Part shown: piece after piece, positions 1,112 to 18,235 of the stretch
How positions within the stretch are numbered: the first letter of the stretch is position 1
Layout of the letters: every line of letters starts with the position of its first letter
Source: a virus
Strand: one strand, 5' to 3'
IMG/VR virus record: IMGVR_UViG_3300025141_000878
Span: 1 to 21,940 of that record
DNA: 21,940 nucleotides
Translations under genes and position numbers: made by a program
Notes under the pieces: generated by a model
Databases searched by the model: none
Told to the model about the DNA's origin: nothing
What the model saw: only the letters and a program-made list of their open reading frames with translations

Positions 1112-1120
1112 AATAAATAG
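1112..1120 (-). promoter_or_regulatory. Recurrent intergenic motif CTATTTATT, copy 1
   Basis: The coding-strand nonamer CTATTTATT lies about 36 bases upstream of the 111-aa gene, just past the terminator that closes the previous unit, and is followed by TTGAC. The same nonamer occurs exactly in four other gene gaps. It may be a phage promoter element. Read on the plus strand it is AATAAATAG, which resembles the T4 late-promoter core ATAAATA but points away from the genes, so its function is uncertain. Confidence 0.35.
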
Positions 1121-1122
1121 TC

Positions 1123-1157
1123 TATAAAAACAAATAAGGCCGGGACGTGCCCGGCCT
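1123..1157 (-). terminator. Rho-independent terminator after the gp26/small-ORF unit
   Basis: Bases 1138-1144 (GGCCGGG) pair perfectly with 1150-1156 (CCCGGCC) around a five-base loop, extended by one A-T pair. In the minus-strand transcript the stem is followed by TTATTTGTTTTT, a T-rich tract. It sits immediately after the stop codon of the small ORF at 1160. Confidence 0.75.
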
Positions 1158-1159
1158 AT

Positions 1160-1396
1160 TTATCTAGACTTGTTTTTTGCTTTATCGTATTCTTGTTTTT
1201 CCTTATCAAATTGTGCTGCGAGGCGCTCTGCAAACCAGTTTCTAAGTCCGATTGGCAGGCTATACAATTCAACGATACTCCAGCCTCCATGATACTTCAT
1301 TGTGAAGAACTGTTCATACACGTTCTTCATATAGCTATCACTTAGGCCAAAAAAACTCCGCCGAAAACGGAACCTCCATTTCTGTCTCAAAACCAC
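1160..1396 (-). CDS. Small ORF after the gp26-like gene, possibly gp51-like hub assembly protein; start uncertain
   Basis: This 78-codon frame overlaps the 3' end of the gp26-like gene. Its core (MKNVYEQFFTMKYHGGWSIV, residues 22-41, then LYSLPIGLRNWFAERL) resembles, from memory, small proteins found directly after gp26-type genes in T4-like phages, where gp51 (baseplate hub assembly catalyst) is expected. The rest is a charged helical tail. Three starts are possible: a GTG at 1396 with no clear ribosome site, the ATG at 1333 just after the gp26-like stop (57 aa), or entry by +1 slippage on the T7 run at 1349-1355, giving a 367-residue fusion. The apparently meaningful FFGLSDSY stretch before the ATG argues against the shortest form. 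The terminator follows directly. Confidence 0.6.
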   Translation of the reverse strand: MVLRQKWRFRFRRSFFGLSDSYMKNVYEQFFTMKYHGGWSIVELYSLPIGLRNWFAERLAAQFDKEKQEYDKAKNKSR

Positions 1397-2264
1397 AGAA
1401 TGGACAGCTAAACTCTTGAGCCATATCCAAAGTTGGAGTGATCTTTACATTGACAGATCTTAAAAATCTAGAATCGAGGGCTGGCATAAGACCAAGAAAT
1501 TCATTAATTTTTGCCTGGTCCTTGACCCCATTGAGCGATACAATGGTTCTTCGAAGTTGATCGATTAAGCTGGGGTCTGAGCTTCCGGACTTATTTGACT
1601 TTCGGCGCTTTTTCATGACGCCGCTAATCCATTGCTCATCCTTTCCTGTCATCAGTTTAAGCTCAGCTTTGATTTTCGTTTTTGGTAGTGTAACCAGGAA
1701 AGTGCCGGTCTCAGTTCTTGACCAGACTTTCTCCAAGGGATCCCCCTCGTCGTCATATTGCTCATCATCCGGATGACGAACTGTGTGAGTCTCCAGGTTA
1801 AATTCATTTTTAGTGTGAGAGCCACAAGAGGGGCACGTTACATTTGTTTCGTATTCTGCCCCATATGCATACATTCTTGTGTAGACCAAAATCGCATTCT
1901 TGTCTCCCGTCAAAAGTTCATCAACTTTAATTGATTTATCGACAATAACACTCTGAATGACTTTATCTAGCGCAACGCCCTTCTTGAGAAGGCTTCTAGA
2001 CGTAAGTATATCTTCCTCCCTAGCTGTCATGTGCCGAATCTCAATTGAGTCCTTTCCATGAAGCGGATGGTCTTTTGGATAAAAGTCTCCTCGTGATGGA
2101 ATATCCACCATCTCGGTCGGCACGATCCAATTTAAGCCGACGTCACTAGTACCCGATGATCCGTTTTCTTGAGAGCCTTCGGGGGCGCTCTCAACTGCGG
2201 GAACGACAGGGACTGGGCTTTGTTGCACAGCCCCTGTGCGGTCCTCATTATTTCGATTAGACAT
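1338..2264 (-). CDS. 26: gp26-like baseplate hub/tail assembly protein with zinc-ribbon-like cysteines
   Basis: This 308-aa protein matches my memory of the T4_baseplate (gp26-like) family. A Pro/Ser-rich disordered N-terminus (1-45) is followed by VDIPSRGDFYP (53-63), then IEIRHMTAREEDILTSRSLL (75-93) and GDKNAILVYTRMYAYG (120-135), which I associate with this family. Two Cys pairs, CPSC (144/147) and CPFC (287/290), probably form a split zinc ribbon. It ends FFWPK. In T4 gp26 is a baseplate hub component or assembly factor; related phage proteins may act as tail assembly chaperones. The start has an AGAGG Shine-Dalgarno. It lies downstream of the tail tube gene, in a tail-assembly context. 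The end overlaps the next frame at a seven-T run. Confidence 0.75.
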   Translation of the reverse strand: MSNRNNEDRTGAVQQSPVPVVPAVESAPEGSQENGSSGTSDVGLNWIVPTEMVDIPSRGDFYPKDHPLHGKDSIEIRHMTAREEDILTSRSLLKKGVALDKVIQSVIVDKSIKVDELLTGDKNAILVYTRMYAYGAEYETNVTCPSCGSHTKNEFNLETHTVRHPDDEQYDDEGDPLEKVWSRTETGTFLVTLPKTKIKAELKLMTGKDEQWISGVMKKRRKSNKSGSSDPSLIDQLRRTIVSLNGVKDQAKINEFLGLMPALDSRFLRSVNVKITPTLDMAQEFSCPFCGFETEMEVPFSAEFFWPK

Positions 2265-2338
2265 CTAAACCTCTCTTAAGTGATGTGTCAATATATAGTC
2301 TAATATTAATATAAATTTGTACAGATGTTAAGCTTTAT

Positions 2339-2950
2339 TTAGAAAGTAACGTCAGGATTGACAGTCGAAGTTTCGTTACCAAATTGATTATCGCCGTTTT
2401 TCGCATTTAGCTTAGCATAATCATAACGAAGCTCTACCGAAATTTCCACCATATCGTCAGAGCTATAATCCAACTCTCCGAGAGAGACCTTTCTGACCCA
2501 AGCATTATAAAGCTGCCACTCTTCAATAACTGTGTCTCCGCCAATACCAAAGCCAGCGTTTCCACCGCCAGAATCTGGTGCTGAGTCGGAGGAACCAAGC
2601 ATCACAATTCGGACTTTGCCAACTTCCGTAGTAGCTCCTCTTTTTGACATAGTTGTTGTGTCGTTCATGTCTTCAGGAGGATGATATCCAGCTCTAGTTA
2701 ACTTGTTGTAAAAAATTTGAGCCATATCAGGGCTCGCCGGATCTGCCAAAGTTACAGTTACTGTACTCCACTTTGTCCTGCCGGGGTAATAAAACTCATG
2801 ATTCAAGTATTGATGTACTGATTCAGTTACTTCCCACTCTGGCTTGGTGACTTTTTTGCACACCCAAGGTTGCATGTCGCCTATATAAGCCAACCACCTA
2901 TATTTTCTTTTGGGTTCCGTGGGGTTCCCAATATCTGACCAAAAGCCCAT
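2339..2950 (-). CDS. 19: Tail tube protein (gp19-like)
   Basis: This 203-aa protein would polymerise into the inner tail tube through which DNA passes. It begins MGFWSDIGNPTEPKRKYRWL and has an alternating beta pattern typical of tube proteins: WVCKKVTKPEWEV (29-41), TKWSTVTVTLADP (about 59-71) and a C-terminal LGELDYSSDDMVEISVELRY, the position where gp19 relatives carry a long beta-strand pair. It is somewhat longer than T4 gp19 (163 aa); the extra length includes a Gly/Ser-rich loop around residues 118-136. The gene follows the sheath gene with a 51-base AT-rich gap and has a strong GGAGG Shine-Dalgarno. The sheath-tube order is the same as T4 18-19, which strengthens the call. Confidence 0.85.
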   Translation of the reverse strand: MGFWSDIGNPTEPKRKYRWLAYIGDMQPWVCKKVTKPEWEVTESVHQYLNHEFYYPGRTKWSTVTVTLADPASPDMAQIFYNKLTRAGYHPPEDMNDTTTMSKRGATTEVGKVRIVMLGSSDSAPDSGGGNAGFGIGGDTVIEEWQLYNAWVRKVSLGELDYSSDDMVEISVELRYDYAKLNAKNGDNQFGNETSTVNPDVTF

Positions 2951-3001
2951 TATTTTAATCCTCCATAAGATTTCTATTATAAATATGTTTTAAAATTATT
3001 T

Positions 3002-5971
3002 TTAATCCGCAAAAGCGGCGCCAGTCCTTGCAATATTAAAATCAATTGCAATAAATTCAATTGCACGAGCAGGTTTAAGGAAAATCTTGGCGTATAGAAT
3101 GTTCCTATCAATCAAATCAGGTGTAGTCGTTGACTCGTCTAATACTACTTTGTAATCAGTCAAGCCAAGATTCATTTTCACACCCTTCAAGAAAGGATCA
3201 ACCTGGCTCAAGAATCGGTTCCAAGTTACCTGAACATTGTTGTCGAAAAGGATTGTCGCAGCAATTGTCGAAACTCTTTTCTTGATGAAAAGAAGCAATC
3301 TTCTCACGTTAATCCGGTCTAGCGCAGACTGTGAAGCCTGAAGTGTTTTCTGACCAAAGATTACGATGCCTTCCGAGGGAAAGCTAGCAATCGGATTAAT
3401 GTTGGCAGCATAGAGCGTGTCACGCTGCTTGCTAGTGAGCTTTTGAGTAATACCGGTTACCGGCATGCCCGCTGCTCCTGAACTTAGTCCGCCGCGATTA
3501 AATCCTGCAGGTGCGAACCAGAGTTTTTGCTTTGCTTGGCCGAAGGACATGGCGCCTAGGGCCACAACCGAAGGGGGTACCCATACCAACTGATTGGCAA
3601 CTGTATCTTGGATTTGCACCCAAGGGAAGTAAGCACAACCGTAGCTGGTGTCAAGCTCTCTGTCTCTCATGGTTCGAGCTGCATTGTCTGCATCTCCAAC
3701 CCGAGATTGGAATCCGCTTGTGCTTTCAGACGCCGGCGTATAGTCGTTTTCAACGTCTATAACTGCCAGTGAATCAGCACGGTCTTCAACCATCTCAAGC
3801 AGCAAGTTTGTAACAAGCGGCTTGTTCACACCAGGCATTGTAATAAGATTGTATTCCGCATCTTCGGGGTCTCGGACGATATCAATTGCCCGTCTTAGAC
3901 TGTTATAAACGTGATCAGTAGTTTCAGTAGCACTGTCACTAATTTTTGCATTACGGATTGGGTTCTTTTCAGTAATATCTAGCCCGTCGTGGCCGCCGAA
4001 GAGAGGCATTGTAAATCCTCCAAGGCCATACTCAATGCTGGCATTGTAGCCTGTATAGCCGTTATTGGCGGCAACAGTCAACGAAGTACCATTCTTCCGC
4101 GAGCCGGATGTGTAGGTTGCATCCAAGTTGTTGTCGGATCCGGATACATCATCCAAACTAAACACAAAAGAGTGGTCTAGTTCCAAAACGGAGGACAAGT
4201 CATCAGTAAACTGGTTTGTAGTTAAGCCTTCTGGCAAGGCTCGTGCGATGTCTGCCTGACTAGAGTCCCATAGTTTGCTCGATGTGGAGCGGCGCATATC
4301 GATACCAAAACGAACTTGGTCCAAATTAGTACCATCGTCAGTATTAGCGCTGCGCAGAGCCATAGTCGGCCACTTAAACGTACCTGTAAAGAAGGCGTTA
4401 GTCGTGCCTTGAACTTCTTCAAATTGTGTTTTAATAATAACACTACTTGATGCAGCCAATTGTGCAGGGGTGTTCGTAACAGTAGCAGCTGCTTTAATAA
4501 AAGAACTGTTGTGAGTTAACGTCAAGTTGGGCTTTGTAGTTATCGCTGACGCCGCGATTGTTCCTTCTGTGAAGAACAATCCTGAATTTCCAGCGACACC
4601 AGAAGTATATTCGTAATTAGCTGGTTTCGGAGGTCCAAAGAATCCCCAAGGAAGGAGTTCTGGATCCAAGGTGCCGTCGCGCAGCGCCTTTGCAGTTTCA
4701 ATTCTTAGGAATTTGGACCTGTTATCAAATTCGCCGTATTCAATCGAACGACGTTGCGATTCGGAGAAGGCAAAATATTTGTCACCAATTTTTCTCGCAA
4801 CAAAATTAGGAGAATTTGGATTCAAGTTACAGTTAGAGAATCTCTCAACAATTTGTGGCTTCTTGTCAATATCGCCAATTTTTCGAATCGAAACGGTGAA
4901 TGTACCGTATCTGTCAGCTAGGTTGCCAGATCTCTTAAGATCTTCAATTGTGACTTTAAGATTTTTCTGATCCCATTCTCCAGTATTGCGGGAATGGAAT
5001 TTAAACAATTTTGGCATTGCTTCTGCAACGAAATTGTTTCGATCACCGAGATCCTGACTGATAACCCAGCCCGATTGAGCAGCTTGGTGCCCGAAGCGAC
5101 GATTCGACCAGTCGACAGAACCGGATCCGAGACCGGTGATGACACCAAAACACTTGGCCGATGTAGTAATCGTATCATTCAAGTGTCTTTCAAAAGTTTC
5201 GCCAAGCCAGTAAGACTTTACAACGCCGGATTCGGTAATTGTACTATTCGTCAGAGTGGGATTTGTGTTAAAAACCTTTCTAATATACTTGTCTGATTGA
5301 GGATCAAAGTTAAAAACAGCTTGATCTTGTATGACTCCCGAAGCGTTTTTGATAACAGCTCGGAATTCTGCGCCTGTATCGGCAGTTGATTCGATAATGC
5401 AAGCGTTAGAGGCTGTAACCAAACTACTCGCTTTGCCGTGGGCATCGCGAAGCCCTACTCGCATGGTACCACTCAAAGCTATCTCACCGGCATCAACATA
5501 CCAAACCGCAGCGAGGGCCGCGTCGACATTGGTCGTAACCGAGCCACTTTCAATAACCCAAAGCCCGTAGGCTCCGCCGGCTGATGTTGGATCTGCTCCA
5601 AGATCATTGGTTGTTTGCCAACCGGCTTGGCCGGCTGTTGTGGCGCTTGAATTTTGGGCTCCAAGAATTCTTACCACATTAACTGGGCCATTGTTGGCCA
5701 GCCATGCTTGTGCGGCATATGCAGCATATGTGGGAGCCATGTAATTACCATCTCTCCAGACATCCCCACTTTTTCCACCAGGAATTGGATTTCCAAAAGT
5801 CTCAACAAAGTCAGAAAGTGACTCAACTTTAGTTGGCACCATTCCAGGGCCTCGTTCAAAAAGGCCGACCACCATCGGGCCGCGCTGTGAGGCGGCGCCG
5901 GGTAGTTGCGAGTTGTCGATTTCCTTTAGGAATATTCCAGGTGATACAAATTTAAATTTTGACGCTGACAT
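3002..5971 (-). CDS. 18: Tail sheath protein (gp18-like), enlarged
   Basis: This 989-aa protein should form the contractile outer tail sheath. The N-terminus (FVSPGIFLKEIDNSQLP, then RGPMVVGLFERGPGMVPTKV) is typical of sheath proteins. The C-terminal portion from about residue 775 carries YFPWVQIQD and VWVPPSVVALGA, then RRLLLFIKKRVSTIAATILF (about 890), DYKVVLDESTTTPDLIDRN and KPARAIEFIAIDFNIARTG, which parallel the end of T4 gp18. It is about 330 residues longer than T4 gp18 (659 aa). The extra sequence lies in the middle (roughly 110-680), which is Ser/Thr/Asn-rich and probably forms surface-exposed domains. A GGGAG Shine-Dalgarno supports the start. It lies between the gp15-like and gp19-like genes, with an AT-rich 84-base gap upstream containing the CTATTTATT motif. 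Confidence 0.92.
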   Translation of the reverse strand: MSASKFKFVSPGIFLKEIDNSQLPGAASQRGPMVVGLFERGPGMVPTKVESLSDFVETFGNPIPGGKSGDVWRDGNYMAPTYAAYAAQAWLANNGPVNVVRILGAQNSSATTAGQAGWQTTNDLGADPTSAGGAYGLWVIESGSVTTNVDAALAAVWYVDAGEIALSGTMRVGLRDAHGKASSLVTASNACIIESTADTGAEFRAVIKNASGVIQDQAVFNFDPQSDKYIRKVFNTNPTLTNSTITESGVVKSYWLGETFERHLNDTITTSAKCFGVITGLGSGSVDWSNRRFGHQAAQSGWVISQDLGDRNNFVAEAMPKLFKFHSRNTGEWDQKNLKVTIEDLKRSGNLADRYGTFTVSIRKIGDIDKKPQIVERFSNCNLNPNSPNFVARKIGDKYFAFSESQRRSIEYGEFDNRSKFLRIETAKALRDGTLDPELLPWGFFGPPKPANYEYTSGVAGNSGLFFTEGTIAASAITTKPNLTLTHNSSFIKAAATVTNTPAQLAASSSVIIKTQFEEVQGTTNAFFTGTFKWPTMALRSANTDDGTNLDQVRFGIDMRRSTSSKLWDSSQADIARALPEGLTTNQFTDDLSSVLELDHSFVFSLDDVSGSDNNLDATYTSGSRKNGTSLTVAANNGYTGYNASIEYGLGGFTMPLFGGHDGLDITEKNPIRNAKISDSATETTDHVYNSLRRAIDIVRDPEDAEYNLITMPGVNKPLVTNLLLEMVEDRADSLAVIDVENDYTPASESTSGFQSRVGDADNAARTMRDRELDTSYGCAYFPWVQIQDTVANQLVWVPPSVVALGAMSFGQAKQKLWFAPAGFNRGGLSSGAAGMPVTGITQKLTSKQRDTLYAANINPIASFPSEGIVIFGQKTLQASQSALDRINVRRLLLFIKKRVSTIAATILFDNNVQVTWNRFLSQVDPFLKGVKMNLGLTDYKVVLDESTTTPDLIDRNILYAKIFLKPARAIEFIAIDFNIARTGAAFAD

Positions 5972-6022
5972 CCTATATTTCTCCCTATTGATCGCTATTC
6001 TAATAGCATTGTTGTATTCCTA

Positions 6023-6031
6023 AATAAATAG
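6023..6031 (-). promoter_or_regulatory. Recurrent intergenic motif CTATTTATT, copy 2
   Basis: An exact copy of the coding-strand nonamer about 52 bases upstream of the tail sheath start. Here TAAATAG at 6025-6031 is also the left arm of a perfect seven-base inverted repeat with CTATTTA at 6052-6058, next to the stop codon of the gp15-like gene. It is a candidate promoter or RNA element for the sheath unit. Confidence 0.35.
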
Positions 6032-6055
6032 TAAGGAAGTTGTCTAAAATCCTAT

Positions 6056-7400: not shown

Positions 7401-7409
7401 CTAGATCTC

Positions 7410-8696
7410 CTATCCTACCAACAATCCAACTGGTACAGTTGCAAGGGTTTCTTGGGCGGTTCTAGTAATTTCACTTTGGGTTTCAGATAATTTAGCATAA
7501 GTAAGCTCATCAAGAATCGTCTTAAGCTCCTCTCTTAACTTCTCTTGCTCGTCTTTTGCTTGATTTAGTAGATCTGAAGCGTTGAGTTGCAAGTCGTTCC
7601 CGGGTATCGGGATCGATCCAAACTTGCCACGAACCTGCCCAAGCATTTCTTTTGTTAGGGCTAGCGCGAAACGCCGGATCCATTGCTTGCCAATACTGTT
7701 AATATTCTTATAGGGCAAGTTTGCAAACGGGAGGGTGTTCATGTTGTTTACACCGTCGTGACCCGAACTTCTATCTGTTTCTTCATCCCAAGCATCTTCC
7801 TGAATAGTGAATTCGACCCATACAGTTGTTGGCGACACTGTTGTTGGTTTTGGAAAAATTCTCAAATTATTATTTTTAATTTCGTATGAATAGTGCGAAT
7901 TTCTAGTGTATATCGCATCTTCATAGGCCATGGCTTGGGCTTTGTTTTGCCAAGGAGGGATAATTTCCCAGCTGGAATCATCAGAATACATTCCGTATGT
8001 CGACATGTTGCCTACAGTATTGAGGCCGCCGTAGTATCCATAAAATCTCCACATAGCATGAGGTGTCTTATAGAACACCCTTTTAATGTTAACTCTTTTT
8101 CCGCCAACTTTTCCGAAATATGTTGAAGTTGGGTCTTGTGAGGAAGTGGCGTTGATCAACGATTGCAAATCGTAATCTTGAATATCCTGTACTGTGTTAA
8201 AAGATGCAGAATATGTATTTTGATTTCCACCCAAACCAATTTGGTTGCCAACACCATCGCCAACTCTGTCTGCGTAACCAAAAGTAAATCTTGGAAGTCT
8301 TAAAGAAGCTTCTGTGCCAGACATTGGCGAAGAAGATAACTGTTGTCCATGGTGGTCAAACGTGCCCGTAGTGTTGCCTAGAACGTTGGGCAGGGTATTC
8401 TTAGCCTGGTGTATGTTTATAATATAAGAGTACTCTAAAACAGCCTCTTCATAGGCGGCATAAACGTTTTGTTCGGTGATCTCAACATCTAACACATCTC
8501 CACCGAGCTTTCTGTATGTATAAGATACCTGCTCTACTGCTCCGGATACAAAATTTGCATCGTAAAGCTCTGCAGAACTATCACCGTATATGCCGAAAGG
8601 ATAGTTAGATGCAGTTTGGGCTTTTGACAGCGTCCCAGTTGCCGGTAAGGTTACTGAAGACGTCTCGCTTGATGGTGTTAATGTGACTACGGGCAT
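7410..8696 (-). CDS. Probable head-tail connector/neck structural protein (gp13-like, tentative)
   Basis: This 428-aa protein has no clear motif that I can name with certainty. The segment LGGDVLDVEITEQNVYAAYEEAVLEYSYII (about residues 64-94) resembles the N-terminal helical part of phage connector proteins: a short strand, then a helix with a regular acidic/aromatic pattern. The middle is Tyr/Asn/Gly-rich and probably beta. Near residue 340 the protein turns helical (KQWIRRFALALTKEMLGQVR) and ends in a Glu/Lys-rich helix. It lies directly before the gp14-like and gp15-like genes, where T4 has gene 13 (309 aa), which makes a gp13 counterpart the best guess. AGGAG precedes the start. A nearer ATG at 8700 is out of frame and would not give this protein. 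Confidence 0.5.
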   Translation of the reverse strand: MPVVTLTPSSETSSVTLPATGTLSKAQTASNYPFGIYGDSSAELYDANFVSGAVEQVSYTYRKLGGDVLDVEITEQNVYAAYEEAVLEYSYIINIHQAKNTLPNVLGNTTGTFDHHGQQLSSSPMSGTEASLRLPRFTFGYADRVGDGVGNQIGLGGNQNTYSASFNTVQDIQDYDLQSLINATSSQDPTSTYFGKVGGKRVNIKRVFYKTPHAMWRFYGYYGGLNTVGNMSTYGMYSDDSSWEIIPPWQNKAQAMAYEDAIYTRNSHYSYEIKNNNLRIFPKPTTVSPTTVWVEFTIQEDAWDEETDRSSGHDGVNNMNTLPFANLPYKNINSIGKQWIRRFALALTKEMLGQVRGKFGSIPIPGNDLQLNASDLLNQAKDEQEKLREELKTILDELTYAKLSETQSEITRTAQETLATVPVGLLVG

Positions 8697-8717
8697 TCAT
8701 GGGTACTCCTATACAAT

Positions 8718-8726: not shown

Positions 8727-8738
8727 GTTTTTGAAAAT

Positions 8739-8772: not shown

Positions 8773-8798
8773 TTTTCTAATTAAAGTCGCTTATGCGA

Positions 8799-10670
8799 TT
8801 ATCCAAGAAGGTTCTTGACGATGACGACACCGTACATATCGGGTCTAACCATCTTCTTAGCATAACGAGTCATGACACCTTTACGTGGCACGAAGTCTTC
8901 CGTACCAAAGATGGTAGGAGTGACTTGTAGCGGCACATAAGGAGCGTATACATAACCGCTCTCAAGGAAGCTACTTCCCTTACGGCCGACAAGAACAACG
9001 TTCCTCTCGAAGTAAGGATCAACGTAGACATCCCATTTCTTGCTAAGGCTTCCTGCTTTCACAGCGCCGACGGTACCTTTGGTATCATCTAGCGTGACGT
9101 TAGCACGGAATCCAGAGGTGAACTCAAGGATGTTCGCAACTTCAGGGGAGACAACAATAAAGTTAGCTCCGCCGCGAAGCGTCTTGCGATGGATCTGAGC
9201 CGACACATCATTGATTGTTTCAACGAGAGTCTCGTACCATTCGCTGACCGTACCGGTGAAATCAGCACCGAGCATACTTTCGTTTGCAAGAGAGCTAATG
9301 TCCGCACCGGTGGTGCGATCAAGGAATTGACCAGGACGACGCGACCAGTAGTATGTACCAGCCTTGGCGCCATTAAGAAGATCAGAGAGAAGCTCTTGGT
9401 CGATCTCTAGAGCAATGTGCTCGGAGAGAACGCTTGTAAGCTCAACTTCAGCATCGAGGTTGTGGTAGGCGTTGAGATCTTGTCCCAATTCCGGAGTCCA
9501 CTTTGCCTTGAGCTTCTTGGTGACTGCCGTAACAGCGATACTGTCGACCTTGATGTCGATCTCAGGGATCTTATCTTTATTGGCCGGATCATTTGTGGTG
9601 TTGCCCGCAAGTTCGAGACCCCACTGATCAGCACCAACAACCGCACCAAGCTCAGGAGCAGCATTGAAGTTGTCCTTGAGCGGGAAGTTCAACGAAGGTG
9701 CCTGTGGGTTGCTTGCCTGCGCGCCGGCAGCGAGAATGTCAGCGATGCCAGCATTGCTGCTACCCACAAACGTGAAACGAATATGGATATCATCATTACC
9801 AGAACCTTGAACGACCTTGGTCAAGCGGCGAACCGGTTGGAGATACTCATCTCCACCCAACCCGAACAGTGCAGCTGTTGTACCAGACGGACTAACTGCC
9901 AAAGCAACCAAGTTATCTAGATCCATAGTCTGTGCGAGTGCGGATGTAACAACGAGGTCAGCCTGAATGACTTCGCTAGTTCCGAGCATTGCAAGAAGAT
10001 CCGGATCGTAATCAACAGCCATTTTGTCGTTCTCTGTGAAGGAACTAATAGCGATCGATGCAGTACCAAGACCAACAGCCATGTGGGATCTGCTTTGGGC
10101 ATCAGTTTTTGTTGAAGCCGTGGCAAAAAGATTATCTGCACCACCGTATACAAGCGTAGATCCGGTTGGTGAGGTGTAGCCGTTGTTAAGACCGTAGAAT
10201 CCTTTTTCGGCGCCTGCTCCGGTGTTTGTGGAAGCCGGGGCGGGCTGACCAATGTCGACACCACCTGTCAACTGACGACCAACAACTCCACCGCCGTAGA
10301 TGGAATCGTTTGCACGAACATCAAGACGACTATCTGTGTATTGGAAGTCGAGGAAGAAAATGAGTCCCGAAGGGAGGCTCATTGGCTGGACGGATACGAG
10401 GTCATTAGCGACGAGTCCGCCGAAAACACGACGAACGATCGGGAAAGCCACGGAAGCGAAACCTTCCACGTCTCCAGCGCTCATCGAGGAAGCTTCTCGA
10501 AGAAGCTCAGCAGCCTGGTTCTCTAAGAGCCGGGCCATAGTTTGTTTGGTATTTCCGCCTTCAAGTCCTTCAAGAAGTCCGGTGCGCTCCCACTTTTCGA
10601 GCAAAGCAGCACCTTCTTGCTTAAGGTTCTTTTTGACAATACCTTCAGTAAGTTTTTGCAAAATAGACAT
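8799..10670 (-). CDS. 23: Major capsid protein (gp23-like)
   Basis: This 623-aa protein is the main head shell protein. Like T4 gp23 it has an N-terminal scaffold-type region (LLEKWERTGLLEGLE at 23-37; MARLLENQAAELLREAS at 45-61), then VRRVFGGLVANDLVSVQPMS (79-98). The core follows: KLKAKWTPELGQDLNAYHNL (386-405) and an ALEIDQELL helix, GGANFIVVSPEVANILEF (500-517), VYVDPYFERNVVLVG (548-562), and a VYAPYVPL (574-581) near the end, all close to the gp23 pattern. The LRE at 57-59 fits the (I/L)xE prohead-protease rule, so residues 1-59 are probably removed. It is about 100 aa longer than T4 gp23 (521); extra sequence lies near 215-345. The start is 2 bases after the scaffold stop, with GGAGAA inside that gene's end. 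Confidence 0.95.
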   Translation of the reverse strand: MSILQKLTEGIVKKNLKQEGAALLEKWERTGLLEGLEGGNTKQTMARLLENQAAELLREASSMSAGDVEGFASVAFPIVRRVFGGLVANDLVSVQPMSLPSGLIFFLDFQYTDSRLDVRANDSIYGGGVVGRQLTGGVDIGQPAPASTNTGAGAEKGFYGLNNGYTSPTGSTLVYGGADNLFATASTKTDAQSRSHMAVGLGTASIAISSFTENDKMAVDYDPDLLAMLGTSEVIQADLVVTSALAQTMDLDNLVALAVSPSGTTAALFGLGGDEYLQPVRRLTKVVQGSGNDDIHIRFTFVGSSNAGIADILAAGAQASNPQAPSLNFPLKDNFNAAPELGAVVGADQWGLELAGNTTNDPANKDKIPEIDIKVDSIAVTAVTKKLKAKWTPELGQDLNAYHNLDAEVELTSVLSEHIALEIDQELLSDLLNGAKAGTYYWSRRPGQFLDRTTGADISSLANESMLGADFTGTVSEWYETLVETINDVSAQIHRKTLRGGANFIVVSPEVANILEFTSGFRANVTLDDTKGTVGAVKAGSLSKKWDVYVDPYFERNVVLVGRKGSSFLESGYVYAPYVPLQVTPTIFGTEDFVPRKGVMTRYAKKMVRPDMYGVVIVKNLLG

Positions 10671-10672
10671 TT

Positions 10673-11755
10673 TTATTCTCCTTTAGTATTTATGCCTGCC
10701 AACATCTGCCAGCGATTTTTCGCGGAGTTGTCAGCTTTTTTCTCGCTTTTTCTGCGAGGCAATGATGTCGAAGATCCTCTGGAAACCGCTTCGCTCAGTG
10801 ATTGTGGCTGTTTCTTATTGGTGCTGCCCACTGCGCTCTGAAGAGTCTCATAAATAACTCTTGTTTCTTCAACGTTTTCAGACTTTGACAAAGCTTCAGC
10901 AAATTTAGCTTTTTGCCGCTCATTCAAGGAGTTGTTTGTCAAAACCTTATTTGTGTATAATAGTTTTGCGTTAAGAAGATTGGATTCTTCCAATTTATCT
11001 CTTAACATGGTTACGACTTTACCAAGCTTTTCAAATTTCTCAGAATGCTTGGAAAGTTTTTCTGTAAGTTGGTTGTTTTTTTGCCGCAAAGACCTAGAGG
11101 ACTCTTGCAGGCTTTCTTTTGTTTTTTTAAGCTCTTCGTTTTCTTCTTCTAGTTCGGTGGAGCTTGCGCGGGCCAATGCCTCTTCTTCTTTTTCCGCCAA
11201 ACGAGTATTGGGAATTCCGTTATTTCCCCAGCCATCCGGCTGCGGGTGCACATCAACTTCCAATTCTTCTTTGAGACCCATGTCTTCTAAAAGATCAGCT
11301 AAAAGCTCTTCATCAATTTCGATATCTTCTTCAAGCGGCTCGATTTCGTCGGCGCCAAGAACATCTTCGGCTGCATCTTCATGAGACTCCAAGCCTCCTT
11401 CCGCGTCCTGTTGTTTTAAAAGTTCATCGAAATCGATTTCAATTTCTTCTTCTTCCTCTGGGCAAGGGCACAGGCTCTCACCTTCTGTTGCACCGAGGGG
11501 GATATCGTCCAATGCAGGGTCAAGATCAGCCTCTCCGCCCAAATCATCAATTCCACCGGTATCCGTTGTGGGATCAGCAAATGGATCCTCTTCTGCGCCG
11601 GCTAGCGGATCTTCTTCTGGCTGCTCCAAGATCGTTTCTACAGCTTCTTTGATTTGCGCCGCGTACTTTTCGATGACAGTTGCCTCTGCATTCTTAATGG
11701 CCACTTCTCGCAAAGCGTCGGCATCAACTACGGCTTGTTCTAGCATTGAAGACAT
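10673..11755 (-). CDS. 22: Prohead core scaffolding protein (gp22-like)
   Basis: This 360-aa protein should form the inner core around which the capsid assembles and then be degraded. Residues 45-165 are extremely acidic, containing poly-Glu and, unusually, a CPCP at 96-99. Residues about 185-260 form a long charged coiled coil (LEEENEELKKTKESLQESSR). Next comes LLNAKLLYTNKVLTNNSLNE (260-279), followed by a helix with ERQKAKFAEALSKSENVEET, which I recall as a hallmark of gp22 relatives. The C-terminus is basic. T4 gp22 is 269 aa, so this one is longer. AAGGAG precedes the ATG. Its end overlaps the ribosome site of the capsid gene, so scaffold and capsid are probably coupled. The order 22-23 matches T4, but the gp21 protease gene is not upstream; fibre genes are. 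Confidence 0.85.
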   Translation of the reverse strand: MSSMLEQAVVDADALREVAIKNAEATVIEKYAAQIKEAVETILEQPEEDPLAGAEEDPFADPTTDTGGIDDLGGEADLDPALDDIPLGATEGESLCPCPEEEEEIEIDFDELLKQQDAEGGLESHEDAAEDVLGADEIEPLEEDIEIDEELLADLLEDMGLKEELEVDVHPQPDGWGNNGIPNTRLAEKEEEALARASSTELEEENEELKKTKESLQESSRSLRQKNNQLTEKLSKHSEKFEKLGKVVTMLRDKLEESNLLNAKLLYTNKVLTNNSLNERQKAKFAEALSKSENVEETRVIYETLQSAVGSTNKKQPQSLSEAVSRGSSTSLPRRKSEKKADNSAKNRWQMLAGINTKGE

Positions 11756-11788
11756 TGAAATACTCCTTTTTCGGTAAATTACGTCAAA

Positions 11789-11797
11789 AATAAATAG
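11789..11797 (-). promoter_or_regulatory. Recurrent intergenic motif CTATTTATT, copy 3
   Basis: An exact copy about 34 bases upstream of the scaffold gene, followed by TTTGACG, as in copies 1 and 5. It is directly preceded by a weak AT-rich inverted repeat (11797-11803 with 11811-11817). This would be the natural promoter position for the scaffold/capsid unit. Confidence 0.37.
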
Positions 11798-11858
11798 TAT
11801 TTAAAACGGCTAAATACCCTAAAATATGCTAGATAATGATTTCGCACAACGATACTGG

Positions 11859-14792
11859 CTAATGTTTTTCTGTAACAAGTTTTTCCAATTTATCAATTCT
11901 GTCTTGCTGTGCCTTGACTGCTTCTACCAACAGCGCCGTAAGTTTTGGATAATCCATGGAGCTAGCGTCGATTCCATTTTCTTCAAATGATACAATTTCT
12001 GGAATGATTTCGCCCACATCCTCTGCTATAAATCCTATATCTTTTTGCCCAGAACTTTTCCAATCGAACGAGACGCCTTGCAAATTTTTAATTTTATTTA
12101 TTGCATCTTGAATTGGAACAATGTTTTTTTTGTATCTACGAGAAGAATAAGATAAAAACGCATTTGCCTTAACGGATCCAGTGGCATCAGCTTTATTTGG
12201 TAACGTGACACCATGAGTTATGTAAGAGCCAGTCAAATCAATTCCTAAAAAACCACTACTAACTTCTAAGGAGCCAGTAAATGATCTACTTGCGCCTGCA
12301 TCGGCCACTATAGATATTTTACCTCCAGAATCATTATAAGTTGTGGTAATGTTCGTTTCGCTATTGCTAGTAAACATATCACCAACGATATCTTGTATTT
12401 GCTCTGTGCTCAGCGAGGTACCGTCGAGGGCACCAATTGCAATGTCTTTCCATGTTCCGGTACTGTCCTTAAATTGCATGAAGCCGGCGTTGTCTCTAAA
12501 TCCATACCCGGTTGCGCCTGCGGAATTGCCAAAATTAACATAATTATTGCTATCAGCAAATTTTAAATTTCCGCTGAGATTTAGTTTTCCAACAAAATAC
12601 GCATCCGAACCGGAAACAGTGTGAATGGTTGTTATTGAGTCGTACTTTGCTGCACTTACTGTGCCCGATATGTCCACATCTCCCGAAAAATAACCATTTG
12701 AACTTGATAATACATTTGTTGCTTGGATAGTCTTGTTGGAGGTCAAAGATCCGCCAGTCGACAAAGTGCCGGAAATTACCGAATTTCCAACAAAGTACCC
12801 ATCGGTACCAGAAAGCGTACTTGTTGCTTTAAGGGCGTCGGCGTTCAAGCTTGATCCAAGAGAAAAGCTTCCGGAAAGGCCCAAATCGCCAGTAAAATAA
12901 GCATCGGAACCCGAAACGGTATTTGCTGCATTAATCGTCGATGCGCAATTTAAAGCACCACTAACTTGCATATTTTCTGACGCATAAAAACTAGATCCGG
13001 ACACTGTTCCTGCGACTTCTAGCGTAGCAATGGGTGTTGCTGTTTTGATGCCGATTCTCGCGGTGGATGCGTCGACGCGGAGCATCTCGGTGGCGTTGCC
13101 TGCCGTGTTAGATTGTATAATTAGGTCTTTATCTTGCACTCCAGGTTTGATTGTCCAATCACCACTATTGCTGTGTGTAAAGGTCAACCCAGTGGCATCA
13201 TCGGGGCCGGCTTGCATTCGGATATCGTCACCATCTGCGTCTAATATAATGTCACCCCTGGCGTCGATTGTGACATGTCGTCCCGAACCGATCGTTAGAT
13301 CAGTTCCGTCTCCTGAGATGTATTCGCCGGTGTCAGAAAAGGCAACTTTCTTACTAGCGGGTAAGAGAAGAACACCTGCAGATGAATCAACTCTGAAAAC
13401 TTCGGCGCCGCTGTTGTCATTAGAGTGGCATTTGAATATTATGTCTTTTGTTGATGCGCCTGGGGCCAATATTACATTGCCAGAGCTATTTTTCGCATCG
13501 AGAAAGGTTGTTCCGCCATCTTTAAAAAACACGTCTCCGCCATCGGCATCAAGAATAATATCGCCTTCCGAATCTAGCGTTAAGGCGGCGCCGGTAATAG
13601 TCAATCCCGAACTGTTGCCTTCAATTTTCTCTCCGTCGTCGCCAAAAGCGAGTCCGATGTCTGCTGGAAGATTGATGTCTCCTCCGGAGCCGACACCGAT
13701 AAACAAGTCAGTGCCGTCGCTATAAATGTATTCATTTGCATTGCTAAACGCAAGTTTTCTGTCATTACCAATTTGAATTAAGCCGGCTGAAGAGTCTAGG
13801 CGCATGACTTCGGCGCCGCTATTATCGCTGGAGTGACATTTGAAAATCACATCTTTCGTTGAAGCGCCAGGGACAATGATTGCATCTCCGGAGCTATTTT
13901 GAAAATCGAGAAAAGTGGTGCCATCATCCTTAAAAAAGACATTTGCGCCCCCTGCATCGAGTGTAATGTCGCCGGCTGAATCTAGCGTGAGCACTCCTCC
14001 GGATATTGTTAATCCTGAGCCATCACCTTCGATTTTTTCTGCGTCCGCTCCGAAAGTTAAGCCAATATTAGCTGCAATATTTACATCTCCGCCGGAACCA
14101 ACACCAATGTAAATGTCGGTGCCGTCACCATATATGTATTCCTCCGCGTTGCCAAATAGTATCTTCTTTGACTCGGCAACCAACAAGGACTCTGCAGAAG
14201 AGTCGATTCTAAAAATCTCTGAGGTGCCGGAAGATGCCTTTCCTTTAAATATTATATCCTTGTTGTTGACAGTGTTTACAAAGGCACAATCATTAGTTCC
14301 AGATTCTGAAATTGTTAAATTTGTGTTGCCACTGGAATCTGCCAAAGTGAGCGTCCCTTGTACCGTAAGAGACTGACCTCCAGTGCTTATTGTTGCATTG
14401 GCTTGTTGAATCGCCTTGCCGTTGGTACCGTCTGATGTAATAATTACGTTATCAACATCAGTATTTGATGACATGGAAATACTGCCCCCGCCAGCCAGTG
14501 TTGCAATAGATCCCGCAGTAACCCTTTTCAAATTATTGCTATCATTGATATCTGCAATTAAAACATAGTCTCCGGAAGCAACAGTGCCATCGGTCGCTCG
14601 ATCCGGAGCGATTGTTAAAGCTGCGGCGCCCGTGGATGCACCGCCGTCAAGACCACTGGTAGTTGAAGTTGTAACTGCAGTGATATCGCCTTGAGCAGTA
14701 ATGGTCGCAGCTTCTGCTGCAACTATTGCATCAAGTTGTTTTCTTGTATAATTGCCGATTCTACCTGGCTTTATTAATGCTCCCTTGGCCAT
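11859..14792 (-). CDS. Tail fibre / receptor-binding protein with C-terminal S74 chaperone (977 aa)
   Basis: A long repetitive structural protein, probably a trimeric tail fibre or spike. The N-terminus (MAKGALIKPGRIGNYTRKQL) should be virion-attached. Residues 210-481 are two copies of a 136-aa module (EYIYGDGTD, GVGSGGDVN, GDITLDA, NSSGD, STKDVIFKC). From about 600 to 760 there are several copies of an SGSDAYFxGxLxxSG repeat. The last 103 residues are a Peptidase_S74-type intramolecular chaperone: YSSRRYKKNI with Ser883 and Lys888 in Ser/Lys dyad spacing, then VSFDWK, DIGFIAEDV and MDYPKLTALLVEAVKAQQ. In this family the domain trimerises the fibre and then cuts itself off just before the Ser. 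The usual Asp after the Ser is Ser here. AGGAGA supports the start. It is followed by the scaffold gene after a 103-base gap. Confidence 0.9.
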   Translation of the reverse strand: MAKGALIKPGRIGNYTRKQLDAIVAAEAATITAQGDITAVTTSTTSGLDGGASTGAAALTIAPDRATDGTVASGDYVLIADINDSNNLKRVTAGSIATLAGGGSISMSSNTDVDNVIITSDGTNGKAIQQANATISTGGQSLTVQGTLTLADSSGNTNLTISESGTNDCAFVNTVNNKDIIFKGKASSGTSEIFRIDSSAESLLVAESKKILFGNAEEYIYGDGTDIYIGVGSGGDVNIAANIGLTFGADAEKIEGDGSGLTISGGVLTLDSAGDITLDAGGANVFFKDDGTTFLDFQNSSGDAIIVPGASTKDVIFKCHSSDNSGAEVMRLDSSAGLIQIGNDRKLAFSNANEYIYSDGTDLFIGVGSGGDINLPADIGLAFGDDGEKIEGNSSGLTITGAALTLDSEGDIILDADGGDVFFKDGGTTFLDAKNSSGNVILAPGASTKDIIFKCHSNDNSGAEVFRVDSSAGVLLLPASKKVAFSDTGEYISGDGTDLTIGSGRHVTIDARGDIILDADGDDIRMQAGPDDATGLTFTHSNSGDWTIKPGVQDKDLIIQSNTAGNATEMLRVDASTARIGIKTATPIATLEVAGTVSGSSFYASENMQVSGALNCASTINAANTVSGSDAYFTGDLGLSGSFSLGSSLNADALKATSTLSGTDGYFVGNSVISGTLSTGGSLTSNKTIQATNVLSSSNGYFSGDVDISGTVSAAKYDSITTIHTVSGSDAYFVGKLNLSGNLKFADSNNYVNFGNSAGATGYGFRDNAGFMQFKDSTGTWKDIAIGALDGTSLSTEQIQDIVGDMFTSNSETNITTTYNDSGGKISIVADAGASRSFTGSLEVSSGFLGIDLTGSYITHGVTLPNKADATGSVKANAFLSYSSRRYKKNIVPIQDAINKIKNLQGVSFDWKSSGQKDIGFIAEDVGEIIPEIVSFEENGIDASSMDYPKLTALLVEAVKAQQDRIDKLEKLVTEKH
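13350..14165 (-). repeat. Two tandem 408-bp repeats inside the 977-aa fibre gene
   Basis: Bases 14165-13758 and 13757-13350 encode two 136-residue copies that align without gaps, at residues 210-345 and 346-481. The first starts KILFGNAEEYIY, the second KLAFSNANEYIY. The copies differ at many amino acid and silent positions, so the duplication is not recent. A truncated third copy (KVAFSDTGEYISGDGTDLTI) follows at residue 482. Confidence 0.85.
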
Positions 14793-14808
14793 ATAATAGT
14801 TCTCCTAG

Positions 14809-14817
14809 AATAAATAG
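14809..14817 (-). promoter_or_regulatory. Recurrent intergenic motif CTATTTATT, copy 4
   Basis: An exact copy only about 17 bases upstream of the 977-aa fibre start and directly 5' of its AGGAGA ribosome site. This closeness leaves almost no room for a leader if the motif is a promoter, and is the strongest argument for an RNA-level role instead. Confidence 0.3.
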
Positions 14818-14820
14818 GTT

Positions 14821-14859
14821 TCAATAAGAAGAAAGCCCGTCCGAAGAACGAACGAGCTT
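14821..14859 (-). terminator. Terminator hairpin between the two S74 fibre genes (distal)
   Basis: Bases 14833-14843 pair with 14849-14859 around a five-base AAGAA loop (11 pairs in the transcript, two of them G-U). The transcript then continues TTCTTCTTATTG, a T-rich but interrupted tract. It lies about 60 bases after the 1072-aa fibre stop codon. Confidence 0.62.
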
Positions 14860-14888
14860 CCAATTAATAACAAATTCGAAAGAAAGGA

Positions 14889-14904
14889 CCTGCCCGAAGG
14901 CAGG
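14889..14904 (-). terminator. GC-rich UUCG hairpin just after the 1072-aa fibre gene
   Basis: CCTGCC (14889-14894) pairs with GGCAGG (14899-14904). In the minus-strand transcript the loop is UUCG closed by C-G, an unusually stable tetraloop. The following bases TCCTTTCTTTCG are only moderately T-rich, so it may protect the 3' end or act jointly with the second hairpin at 14833-14859. Confidence 0.45.
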
Positions 14905-14920
14905 CCCAGTTATCAAAGCA

Positions 14921-17900
14921 TTACTTCGATAGCTTCTCTACTTTTGCAGAAAGAGCCTTAATTTGCTTTTGCTGTTGCTTGACAGCCTCAACGAGAAGGG
15001 CGTTCATGCTTGGGTAGTCAAGAGCGTAGCCACCTTCTTCACTTCCGTGACAGAGGGATGGTACAACTTTTGCAACTTCCTGAGCGATGAAACCAATGTC
15101 GCTGCTGTTGTCGTGCTTCCAGTCATAGCTAACTCCACGAAGCTTCTGAACAGTGTCAAGAGCCGTATCAAGCTGCTTGATGTTCTTCTTCATTCTTCCA
15201 TCCGAGTAGGTTACGAAAGCGTGAGCCTTCATATTCTGCCCAGTCCCAAGAGTGAGGTAGTCAGTAGAGTGAGTCATTGTGACATTGCCGCTGTCGAAGT
15301 TAATGACTGCGCCGCTAGCTAGGAAAACATCCGAGAATGCAGTTCCTGCAACACCGAGAGCCAAACCATCGTTAGATGCAGGTCCGAGTGCCGCTGCGTT
15401 CAAGTGTAACTCATCAGAGCCGCCAACTTCGAACGTAATAACGTCGTCAGCAGAAGCGCGAATCGATGTGTCATCGTCAGCATCAAGATCGATACGACCT
15501 GTTCCACCCATGCTGATGTTTCCTTGACCATTAAGATCAATAGCATCAACAAAAAGGCTAGCCCAAGCAGTACCGGAAGCACCAAGGTTGTCAGCACTAT
15601 CGCTGTTTGGTATAATGTTACCATCAACGTCAACATCTCCACCAGCTGGATCAAGTTTAATATCACCGGACGAAATGACACTAAGATCAGTTCCGTCTCC
15701 TGTGATGTACTCGCCAGCATCACCGAATGCAAGTCTGTGGTTAGCAGAAGCCATTACACAGTTGTTTGCAGCCTGGTCAGTCAAGGTGAACTTGGACGTG
15801 CTACCGATGTTAAGAATACAGCTATCAGAAAGAAGATCAAGATCATCACCGATAACAGCACTCTTGGCAACACTTAAACCACCGTCAGTCTGCAAAGAAC
15901 CGTCAGTTGTTGAAGTAGCTTCAGTTGTGTCGTCAGTCTTAACAATTCCACTAGCAACAATTGTTGAGGTTGTAAGAGCCGCTGTCGCCAACGTTCCACC
16001 GGCAACCGTCAAAGCGTTTGAAGAGTGAGTCATTGTGACATCACCACTGTCAAAATTGACTACGGCGCCGCTTGCAAGGAAGAGGTCGCTGAAGCCGTAA
16101 GACGTTTTACCGAGAGCAACGCCGTCGTCGGTAACCGGACCTAAAACGTCCTTTCCGACGCCAAGCATCGCTGTAGATCCAGAGTAAACCATCAAAGCTT
16201 GACCTGCGTCACTCCAGAGCATGCGGGCCATGCCGCCGTCAACAATCGTTCCACCAATTTGGTAACCACCGCTATTAACGTCAGAAGAAGAACCAGAAAG
16301 ACCAGCGAGGATCGTCTTATCGACGACTTCGAGTGTCAAAGCTGTTTCACTAATGCTGTTAATGTTAGTAACATCAAGATTTGTAACCTTAATGTGCGAA
16401 GCAGTTAGTTGGTTGATTGTACCGATATTTAAAGCAGCATCCAAGACAAGAGCCTTCGAAGCAGCTGCAGTACCAGCAGTAACACTGTCAAGTACACCAA
16501 GCTCGGCCGCAGAAAGAGTTGTAGTGTCAAGAGTAAAACTCGTATCACACGCCAACGTTCCGCCAATGTTCAAAGAACCCATAGTGGAAGCGCCGGTAGA
16601 TGTAATAGCACCACAACCAACCGTACCGATAGTTGCAATATTTTTGCTAGCATCAAGAACAACCGCCTTAGAAGCAGCTGCAGTACCAGCAGTGATACCG
16701 TCAAGTTGCTCTAAATCAGCTTCAGACATTGCTGCCGAGCCAATTGTTAAACTGGTTGCGCAAGTAACTGAACCATTGAAGGTTGCATTTCCAGCCTCAG
16801 ACATATCAAGTGTAAGAGCCGTGATTGTGGAACCACCGTCATTACCTTTAAAAAGCATGTCTTGATCTGAAATTGCAGAGTGCACAACAAAGTCACTGCT
16901 GGCATTTGTGAAACGACCAAACTCAGTACCGCCATCTTTGAGGATAACGTCTGCGCCATCAGCATCGAGAACGATATCTGTGGACGAATCAAGAGTTAGA
17001 TCTCCAGTCGAATTAACCGAGATTGGTGTCGCAGCAATTACGAGACCGGTTGCACCATCGTGAGTGAGCGTGGCGTCTTGGCCGGCACCCATGCTAAAAA
17101 TCGCACTATCAGACAAAAGATCTAGATCATCACCGATGACCGCACTTTTGACAACGCTTAAGCCACCATCAGTTTGAAGTGAACCATCTGTTGCAGTGGT
17201 AGCTTCTGTTGAATCGTCAACAAGCACACGACCAGAAGTGGTAACCTGAGCAAAAGACGAATTACCCGTTGAAGTAACGGCTCCACAACCAACAGTACCG
17301 ATAGTTGCGATGTTTTTGCTAGCATCGAGAACAACCGCTTTAGAAGCTGCAGCCGTACCAGCAGTGACGTCGTTGAAGTTAAGCTGACCACCGAGCGCAG
17401 TAACTTGCACGTCGCCAACATAGAATTGCTGCCCCATAACAGAAATCTTATCTGCAGAAATGACAGACCCGTTGCCACCAGTTAGGGCAGATGCCGTAAG
17501 GCTAGTGAGTGTACCAACGTGTTTGCCTGCGTCCAAAACAACCGCTTTAGAAGCTGCAGCCGTACCAGCAGTAACACTGTCCAGAACACCAATTTCAGCA
17601 GTGGTAATAGTGGTTGTATCAAGCGTTAAGCTTGTGTCACCAGTAATTGTACCAACAACGTTCATACCAGCAGAAGTAACTTCTACTCGGTCTGTACCGT
17701 TAATGTTGAGATTGACACCAGTATCAGCTTGTGCGTTCAAATAGCCGTTAGCATCAGAACTAACGTGCACATCGGCATCGCGGAACTCAAGCTTCATGGC
17801 GCCATTTAAACGAACACCTGTGTCGTGAATGTGCGTCAATGTGACTTCCTGGTCATTACCTAAGTAAATGATAGAGCCGTCAGCCATGTAAAGATCGGAC

Positions 17901-18139
17901 CATTCCTTATCGGCGGTACCGAGCGAATCACCATCGGCAGAGGGTGGATCTGCTCCACCGAGGGCCGTGACGTTGCCCCCTTGATTAATAAAGTAAAGTG
18001 CTGCGGTTGAACCTGAAGCAAAGATTCGACCAACAGATTGAGAAGCCGCTACAGGTGCTGCACCTGTTAGAGCTTGTAGTTGAATATACTCTCCGTGTAT
18101 AGAAACCGGATTTAACGCATATGGATTTGAATTTGGCAT
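14921..18139 (-). CDS. Tail fibre / receptor-binding protein with C-terminal S74 chaperone (1072 aa)
   Basis: A second large, low-complexity fibre-like protein. The N-terminus is MPNSNPYALNPVSIHGEYIQ. The body has four copies of a block around VTAGTAAASKAVVLDA, two copies of TDGSLQTDGGLSVxKSAVIG, and two copies of FLASGAVxNFDSGxVTMTHS; some segments (GDITLDA/ADG-type strands, GDGTDL) also appear in the 977-aa protein. The last 103 residues are a canonical S74 domain: YSDGRMKKNI with Ser979-Asp980, Arg982 and Lys984, then VSYDWK, DIGFIAQEV and LDYPSMNALLVEAVKQQQKQ, ending in a short coiled coil. Self-cleavage just before Ser979 would release about 94 residues. The ATG has a GGAGA ribosome site and a structured 200-base upstream gap. 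Two hairpins follow its stop. Confidence 0.92.
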   Translation of the reverse strand: MPNSNPYALNPVSIHGEYIQLQALTGAAPVAASQSVGRIFASGSTAALYFINQGGNVTALGGADPPSADGDSLGTADKEWSDLYMADGSIIYLGNDQEVTLTHIHDTGVRLNGAMKLEFRDADVHVSSDANGYLNAQADTGVNLNINGTDRVEVTSAGMNVVGTITGDTSLTLDTTTITTAEIGVLDSVTAGTAAASKAVVLDAGKHVGTLTSLTASALTGGNGSVISADKISVMGQQFYVGDVQVTALGGQLNFNDVTAGTAAASKAVVLDASKNIATIGTVGCGAVTSTGNSSFAQVTTSGRVLVDDSTEATTATDGSLQTDGGLSVVKSAVIGDDLDLLSDSAIFSMGAGQDATLTHDGATGLVIAATPISVNSTGDLTLDSSTDIVLDADGADVILKDGGTEFGRFTNASSDFVVHSAISDQDMLFKGNDGGSTITALTLDMSEAGNATFNGSVTCATSLTIGSAAMSEADLEQLDGITAGTAAASKAVVLDASKNIATIGTVGCGAITSTGASTMGSLNIGGTLACDTSFTLDTTTLSAAELGVLDSVTAGTAAASKALVLDAALNIGTINQLTASHIKVTNLDVTNINSISETALTLEVVDKTILAGLSGSSSDVNSGGYQIGGTIVDGGMARMLWSDAGQALMVYSGSTAMLGVGKDVLGPVTDDGVALGKTSYGFSDLFLASGAVVNFDSGDVTMTHSSNALTVAGGTLATAALTTSTIVASGIVKTDDTTEATSTTDGSLQTDGGLSVAKSAVIGDDLDLLSDSCILNIGSTSKFTLTDQAANNCVMASANHRLAFGDAGEYITGDGTDLSVISSGDIKLDPAGGDVDVDGNIIPNSDSADNLGASGTAWASLFVDAIDLNGQGNISMGGTGRIDLDADDDTSIRASADDVITFEVGGSDELHLNAAALGPASNDGLALGVAGTAFSDVFLASGAVINFDSGNVTMTHSTDYLTLGTGQNMKAHAFVTYSDGRMKKNIKQLDTALDTVQKLRGVSYDWKHDNSSDIGFIAQEVAKVVPSLCHGSEEGGYALDYPSMNALLVEAVKQQQKQIKALSAKVEKLSK
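16412..17604 (-). repeat. Four dispersed copies of a roughly 100-bp block in the 1072-aa fibre gene
   Basis: Copies lie at about 17507-17604, 17283-17380, 16611-16710 and 16412-16505, each encoding VTAGTAAASKAxVLDA-type sequence (ITAGTAAASKA in one). The second and third are nearly identical over more than 80 bases, with differences mostly at third codon positions. The neighbouring TDGSLQTDGGLSV module at about 17086-17228 also has a partner at about 15804-15945. They are coding repeats, not separate elements. Confidence 0.8.
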
Positions 18140-18155
18140 ATATTTTTCTCCTTTT

Positions 18156-18163
18156 TATAAATA
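18156..18163 (+). promoter_or_regulatory. Perfect TATAAATA octamer (opposite to gene direction)
   Basis: The plus strand reads TATAAATA, the exact T4 late-promoter consensus, immediately before the ribosome site of the 1072-aa fibre gene. It points away from that gene, towards the 3' end of the preceding one. Another perfect TATAAATA, also plus strand, lies at 2978-2985 before the tube gene. These gaps are AT-rich, so chance is possible. Confidence 0.2.
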
Positions 18164-18169
18164 TTGCAA

Positions 18170-18225
18170 ACGTAGCTGTGCATCGGTGCATCCCCATTAT
18201 GGTAGACACACCTCCCCCGCTACGT
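18170..18225 (-). promoter_or_regulatory. Structured 5' leader of the 1072-aa fibre gene
   Basis: In the minus-strand transcript ACGUAGC (18225-18219) pairs perfectly with GCUACGU (18176-18170). Inside, GGUGUGUC pairs with GAUGCACC over eight positions (two G-U), capped by a small CC/GG helix. An internal loop (GGGGGA against GAUGCACA) separates the two helices. The element lies between motif copy 5 and the ribosome site, so it would be in the 5' untranslated leader. Possible roles are mRNA stability or translational control. It is too short (56 bases) and lacks the T-arm sequence for a tRNA. Confidence 0.45.
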
Positions 18226-18226
18226 C

Positions 18227-18235
18227 AATAAATAG
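18227..18235 (-). promoter_or_regulatory. Recurrent intergenic motif CTATTTATT, copy 5
   Basis: An exact copy followed by GACG, about 88 bases before the 1072-aa fibre start and just 5' of the structured leader. If the motif is a promoter element, transcription would start within or just before the leader hairpin. Confidence 0.35.

Follow-up and report, generated by a model that had tools for sequence, protein, structure and literature searches.

What is the function of the nonamer CTATTTATT, which recurs in the gaps between the structural genes of this virus? The stretch of DNA analyzed (the window) is a virus record of 21.9 kb made up of a minus-strand run of structural genes, which also includes genes for a gp15-like protein and a baseplate hub. 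The following genes bear on the question:

2339..2950, minus strand: tail tube protein (phrog_4542, 9e-25)
3002..5971, minus strand: tail sheath protein, gp18-like (phrog_23, 6e-63)
7410..8696, minus strand: head-tail adaptor Ad2/gp13-like protein (phrog_211, 2e-12)
8799..10670, minus strand: major capsid protein, Gp23 family (Pfam PF07068, 2e-73)
10673-11755, minus strand: scaffold-like gene
11859-14792, minus strand: one of two S74-terminated fibre genes
14921-18139, minus strand: the other S74-terminated fibre gene

The best cultured matches are immuto, Mel-JY01 and RM378, and the window shares capsid gene relatives and gene order with the Far-T4 phages (Roux 2015; RM378, Immutovirus). On these best hits the window phage may be labelled Far-T4-type. 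Far-T4 phages are common in water, and their transcription programme was previously unknown. Roux et al. did not detect T4 core transcription-regulation genes in them and suggested that their transcription might differ (PMC4360716). A literature search found no promoter or late sigma factor described for Far-T4 phages, and literature searches for the motif itself returned nothing relevant.

The initial annotation had reported five exact copies of the nonamer and one eight-of-nine copy, always between genes. These coordinates are correct: all five exact copies are intergenic and on the coding (minus) strand, and the plus strand of the window has none. The gaps were said to total less than 1 kb, in agreement with the ~860 intergenic bases counted in the window. 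The copies do precede start codons, at distances of 16-87 bases by our recount rather than the 17-88 first given. A second-order Markov model of the window predicts 0.125 coding-strand copies of CTATTTATT, and at least five copies of the nonamer were obtained in 0 of 200 simulations from that model. With one mismatch allowed, the window holds 11 copies vs 6.5 expected; this enrichment is only mild, so the weight of the nonamer evidence rests on relatives of the virus.

Relatives were retrieved with the capsid protein, yielding 80 related contigs (56-65% identity). Across these contigs and the window (920 kb), 98 copies of CTATTTATT run with the genes vs two reversed, and 93 of the 98 coding-orientation copies are intergenic, though only ~50 kb of the 920 kb is intergenic. 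The aligned sites are also conserved outside the nonamer: counting from the C, positions -21 to -15 read G, G/T, C/A, any base and TTT, position -1 is A and position +12 is a purine. Unsupervised expectation maximization over 474 non-redundant sense gaps refined this to G[G/T][C/A]nTTT, 13 bases, ACTA[T/A/C]TTA (ACTAHTTA) and a purine 12 bases after the C. As far as sequence conservation can tell, the nonamer is half of a longer two-part motif. At 8 bits or more, the refined motif was found in 240 of the 474 gaps in sense, in none in antisense and in 3 in reversed sequence, while the core ACTAHTTA was found in the gaps 253 times in sense vs 7 times in antisense, with 10 expected. In 155 of 232 core matches the TTT begins 17 bases before the C (-17), a single preferred offset.

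The bare DNA pattern was also scanned over IMG/VR contigs, with the reversed pattern as control. Among the matches listed, 104 of 119 loci encode at least two proteins related to the group, vs 25 of 120 loci among those listed for the reversed pattern; 73% of the matches listed are intergenic and just upstream of a start, vs 11% in the reversed control. These shares, and not the totals of the two capped listings, are what can be compared.

A held-out model, whose training excluded the window and seven larger genomes or fragments, recovered five of the six window sites at 18.8-26 bits, namely four exact copies and the eight-of-nine copy. On the opposite window strand it gave one 7.6-bit match, where 0.98 matches of at least 7 bits are expected by chance. 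The window sites, with the upstream (-30) element of each, are as follows:

1112..1121, minus strand (1120 site): core ACTATTTATT, upstream of gene 741-1076; inferred +1 at 1108; held-out score 23.0 bits
1135..1141, minus strand: -30 element GGCCTTA of the 1120 site, 6.1 bits
1157-1137: terminator-like hairpin, -15.9 kcal/mol, overlapping the -30 element of the 1120 site
6023..6032, minus strand (6031 site): core ACTATTTATT, upstream of the tail sheath gene; inferred +1 at 6019; held-out score 23.4 bits
6046..6052, minus strand: -30 element GGATTTT of the 6031 site, 6.8 bits
8718..8727, minus strand (8726 site): core CCTATTTAGT, the eight-of-nine copy, upstream of the Ad2/gp13-like gene; inferred +1 at 8714; held-out score 18.8 bits
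8741..8747, minus strand: -30 element GGGTTTT of the 8726 site, 8.0 bits
8775-8741: terminator-like hairpin, -21.9 kcal/mol, overlapping the -30 element of the 8726 site
11789..11798, minus strand (11797 site): core ACTATTTATT, upstream of the scaffold-like gene and the major capsid gene; inferred +1 at 11785; held-out score 26.0 bits
11812..11818, minus strand: -30 element GGTATTT of the 11797 site, 5.3 bits
14809..14818, minus strand (14817 site): core CCTATTTATT, upstream of the S74 fibre gene 11859-14792; inferred +1 at 14805; held-out score 21.8 bits
14832..14838, minus strand: -30 element GGGCTTT of the 14817 site, 7.7 bits
14860-14832: terminator-like hairpin, -16.9 kcal/mol, whose 3' arm and T-tract are the -30 element of the 14817 site
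18227..18235, minus strand: exact nonamer only, upstream of the fibre gene 14921-18139; score 3.3 bits, element -2.8 bits

The 18235 copy was missed by the held-out model in its scan of the window. Its low score results from the missing upstream element and preceding A, and we regard this copy as a doubtful or degenerate site. The leader between the sheath gene and its putative promoter contains a mini-ORF of four codons at 6009-5995 (ATG CTA TTA GAA TAG).

At three of the five window sites (14817, 8726 and 1120), the -30 element overlaps an intrinsic-terminator-like hairpin belonging to the gene upstream, and among 243 core-selected sites 59 (24%) have the element at the end of such a hairpin. 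TTT is nevertheless in the right place at 67% of sites without an upstream hairpin vs 69% of sites with one (background 6.7%). Since it is about equally frequent in both, the -30 element is independent of terminators, and its explanation as a terminator by-product was rejected.

The motif is restricted by gene class. In seven related genomes, picked by capsid similarity, possibly incomplete and with mechanical gene calls, it was found in 25 of 50 structural-gene gaps vs 0 of 27 replication/metabolism-gene gaps (Fisher p = 1.4e-6), leaving half of the structural-gene gaps without a scoring site. In relatives, scaffold, gp13-like, sheath and tube genes are repeatedly preceded by it. Gaps without the motif carry TTGACA-N17-TGnTATAAT promoters in the marine genomes, so that two promoter classes appear to coexist, which looks like an early/late programme. 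The motif differs from the sigma70 -35/-10 promoter (TTGACA-N17-TATAAT) in its elements and spacing, and stands as a separate class in the same genomes.

The candidate reader of the motif is a gp55-like protein of ~226-256 aa, for which the best family is phrog_234, late sigma transcription factor. This profile matches 60 of 61 family members at E values up to 1, the best at 1.6e-7 and some weakly, and the gp55-like protein is its only match in G001, G002, G003 and immuto. The gene is absent from the 21.9 kb window; it was found in all large genomes examined except RM378, and Mel-JY01 encodes a homologue. None of 58 loci has the late motif immediately before the sigma gene. The phrog_234 match spans residues 7-164, and the ~65 further residues form a conserved, predicted helical domain carrying the motif NKKAxYxYxRExTGxNTKQ. 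An AlphaFold2 model of the protein (mean pLDDT 82, pTM 0.45) retrieved mainly sigma factors from both structure libraries, none of them significant in PDB, and a model of the C-terminal fragment (pLDDT 87, pTM 0.75) gave weak, non-significant matches to helix-turn-helix proteins and homeodomains. Profile searches of PDB with the gp55-like sigma gave no match at E up to 10. The protein is probably a diverged gp55-like late sigma, with weak profile scores and structure matches that are mostly non-significant. The initial annotation had also pointed to gp55- and gp33-type genes: the former has a counterpart here, while profile models for gp45 and gp33 (PF02916, PF16805) matched nothing in six records, a search that diverged homologues could escape. 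A second, full-length sigma70-family factor with regions 2, 3 and 4 is encoded in G002 (C1:105925-106884; L101). It was considered as the motif reader and rejected: the other genomes examined lack a homologue, and a factor confined to one genome does not explain a shared motif.

The T4 late box is TATAAATA at -13 to -6 (PMC2988020, PMC1524935). When the C of our motif is set to -12, the core reads A-13 C-12 T-11 A-10 H-9 T-8 T-7 A-6 and the conserved purine falls at +1, where G or A is present at 80% of sites; the inferred +1 lies a median of 27 bases from the start codon (5-95% range 13-74). The run-on of some copies into TTGAC or TTTGACG, pointed out initially, owes something to the preference for a purine at +1 and for A at +2, and its reading as a -35 box was rejected. 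Given the shared register and the purine at +1, ACTATTTA is most plausibly a relative of the T4 box, read in sense orientation. Both boxes stand at -13 to -6 from a purine start (here inferred from the register) in the same orientation, with identical T-11 A-10 and T-7 A-6; both precede like genes (scaffold, neck, sheath, tube), structural and not replication genes, in phages that encode a gp55-family sigma. They differ in that A-13 C-12 and T-9 T-8 here replace the TA and AA of T4, and in that the sigma here has an added C-terminal helical domain. The -30 element is a further difference: the T4 late promoter has no upstream element (PMC2988020), and a count of the same kind over 17 T4 sites gave no comparable conservation at -33 to -27. 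A further parallel is Aeromonas phage Aeh1, whose late box is CTAAATA from -12 and whose gp55 is strongly diverged (PMC1524935). Aeh1 shares the C at -12 and the flanking CTA..TA (5 of 7 bases identical), but has AA at -9/-8 where the motif here has TT, and no upstream element is reported for the Aeh1 late promoter in the text consulted.

We conclude that the nonamer is very probably the core of a two-part Far-T4-type late promoter, most likely read by a diverged gp55-like sigma. That it could be a late promoter had been proposed at the outset, and the polarity, the upstream element and the restriction to structural genes now strongly support it. The full promoter would consist of G[G/T][C/A]nTTT at about -33 to -27, a fixed 13-base spacer, ACTA[T/A/C]TTA at -13 to -6 and a purine at +1, and would face the structural genes, its box standing in for the T4 late box. 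This box would most likely be read by the phage's own late sigma on host RNA polymerase, and the -30 element, which lacks a T4 counterpart, may be read by the helix-turn-helix-like C-terminal domain of that sigma. Transcription would then initiate at the motif, presumably at the conserved purine and late in infection. Judged on sequence, the best reading is a previously undescribed variant of the T4 late system in which register and role are the same and the box, the upstream element and the sigma have changed. T4 late transcription needs gp33/gp45 clamp coupling. It is a tentative possibility, which we consider rather doubtful, that a self-sufficient two-element sigma replaces gp33/gp45 coupling here, its gp55-type region binding the ACTATTTA box and its C-terminal helix-turn-helix the -30 element, with terminators doubling as -30 elements. 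The motif provides a directly usable late-promoter signature for the Far-T4 group and a lead to the candidate late sigma; it also implies that more than one box can be at work in late transcription of the T4 type. Cultivated immuto, which grows on Flavobacterium sp. LMO8, is a test case, with its sheath gene preceded by a full-length site of 16.5 bits that has both elements.

Other readings of the motif were weighed against this promoter. The nonamer had been described as the reverse of the T4 late core, pointing away from the genes, and an antisense promoter was among the options listed. Its complement does contain AATAAATAG, and T4 late boxes contain ATAAATA; TATTTAT and ATAAATA are complementary, which accounts for the reversed match. 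The motif nevertheless faces the genes: the purine start and the upstream element take their expected places in sense only, and the T4 core itself is at background in sense gaps (8 seen vs 6.4 expected). Polarity and background level together rule out a reversed T4 core, and an outward-facing T4-type late promoter with ATAAATA on the opposite strand is extremely improbable, since the polarity of the motif runs with the genes. An RNA-level signal in the 5' untranslated region (a processing site, leader element or translation enhancer) would suit an AU-rich motif 16-87 bases before start codons, and RNA processing had also been suggested. However, the distance to the start codon varies widely, whereas the TTT element conserved together with the core keeps a fixed distance, 15-17 bases upstream of it, and at 24% of sites this element is the tail of the previous gene's terminator-like hairpin, so that an RNA with both parts is not expected as the main transcript. 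Since both the element at fixed distance and the terminator stems before it lie upstream of the inferred transcript start, an RNA signal is very unlikely.

The least improbable of the alternatives, though still unlikely, is a second promoter type for host RNA polymerase, read by a housekeeping or alternative host sigma and used for structural genes. The two-element, -35/-10-like layout of the motif would fit. The early region of immuto also abounds in a strong GTTG-N20-TATATTTAG motif, whose box is superficially similar and which fits a Bacteroidota housekeeping (-33/-7) promoter. Yet immuto has both types, with separate ACTATTTAT-type sites before structural genes such as sheath and neighbouring genes, and in the marine genomes the canonical TTGACA-N17-TGnTATAAT promoters of other gaps indicate that the housekeeping sigma has a different target. 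The presence of the gp55-like sigma in every large genome examined except RM378 also argues against a host reader. The Bacteroidota -33/-7 promoter (TTTG / TAnnTTTG) resembles the motif in its two AT-rich elements and TATTT-like box, but differs in spacing and upstream element; it was rejected for the marine genomes, with 1 match in all sense gaps vs 1.7 expected, though it is the prevailing type in the early region of immuto. As for the other cultured relatives, some structural genes of Mel-JY01 carry a TATATTTAT variant, and a motif search of RM378 gave no clear motif.

In G001-G007 (L086-L105, L114-L133) the early-type promoters follow the canonical TTGACA-N17-TGnTATAAT pattern, which speaks against Bacteroidota as hosts of the window's closest relatives; published host predictions for Far-T4 phages favour Flavobacteriales. 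A host search in GTDB genomes returned one contig only and was uninformative. In Mel-JY01 (PP395634.1; L106, L108-L110), the dominant promoter-like motif is (C/T)TTGC, about 19 bases, then TATATTTG, which resembles the Bacteroidota -33/-7 promoter though the phage is recorded from Microcystis elabens, a cyanobacterium; a check of its actual host may be worthwhile. Mel-JY01 also carries an annotated ribosomal protein S21 gene (L106:22183-22410) between its prohead protease and scaffold genes.
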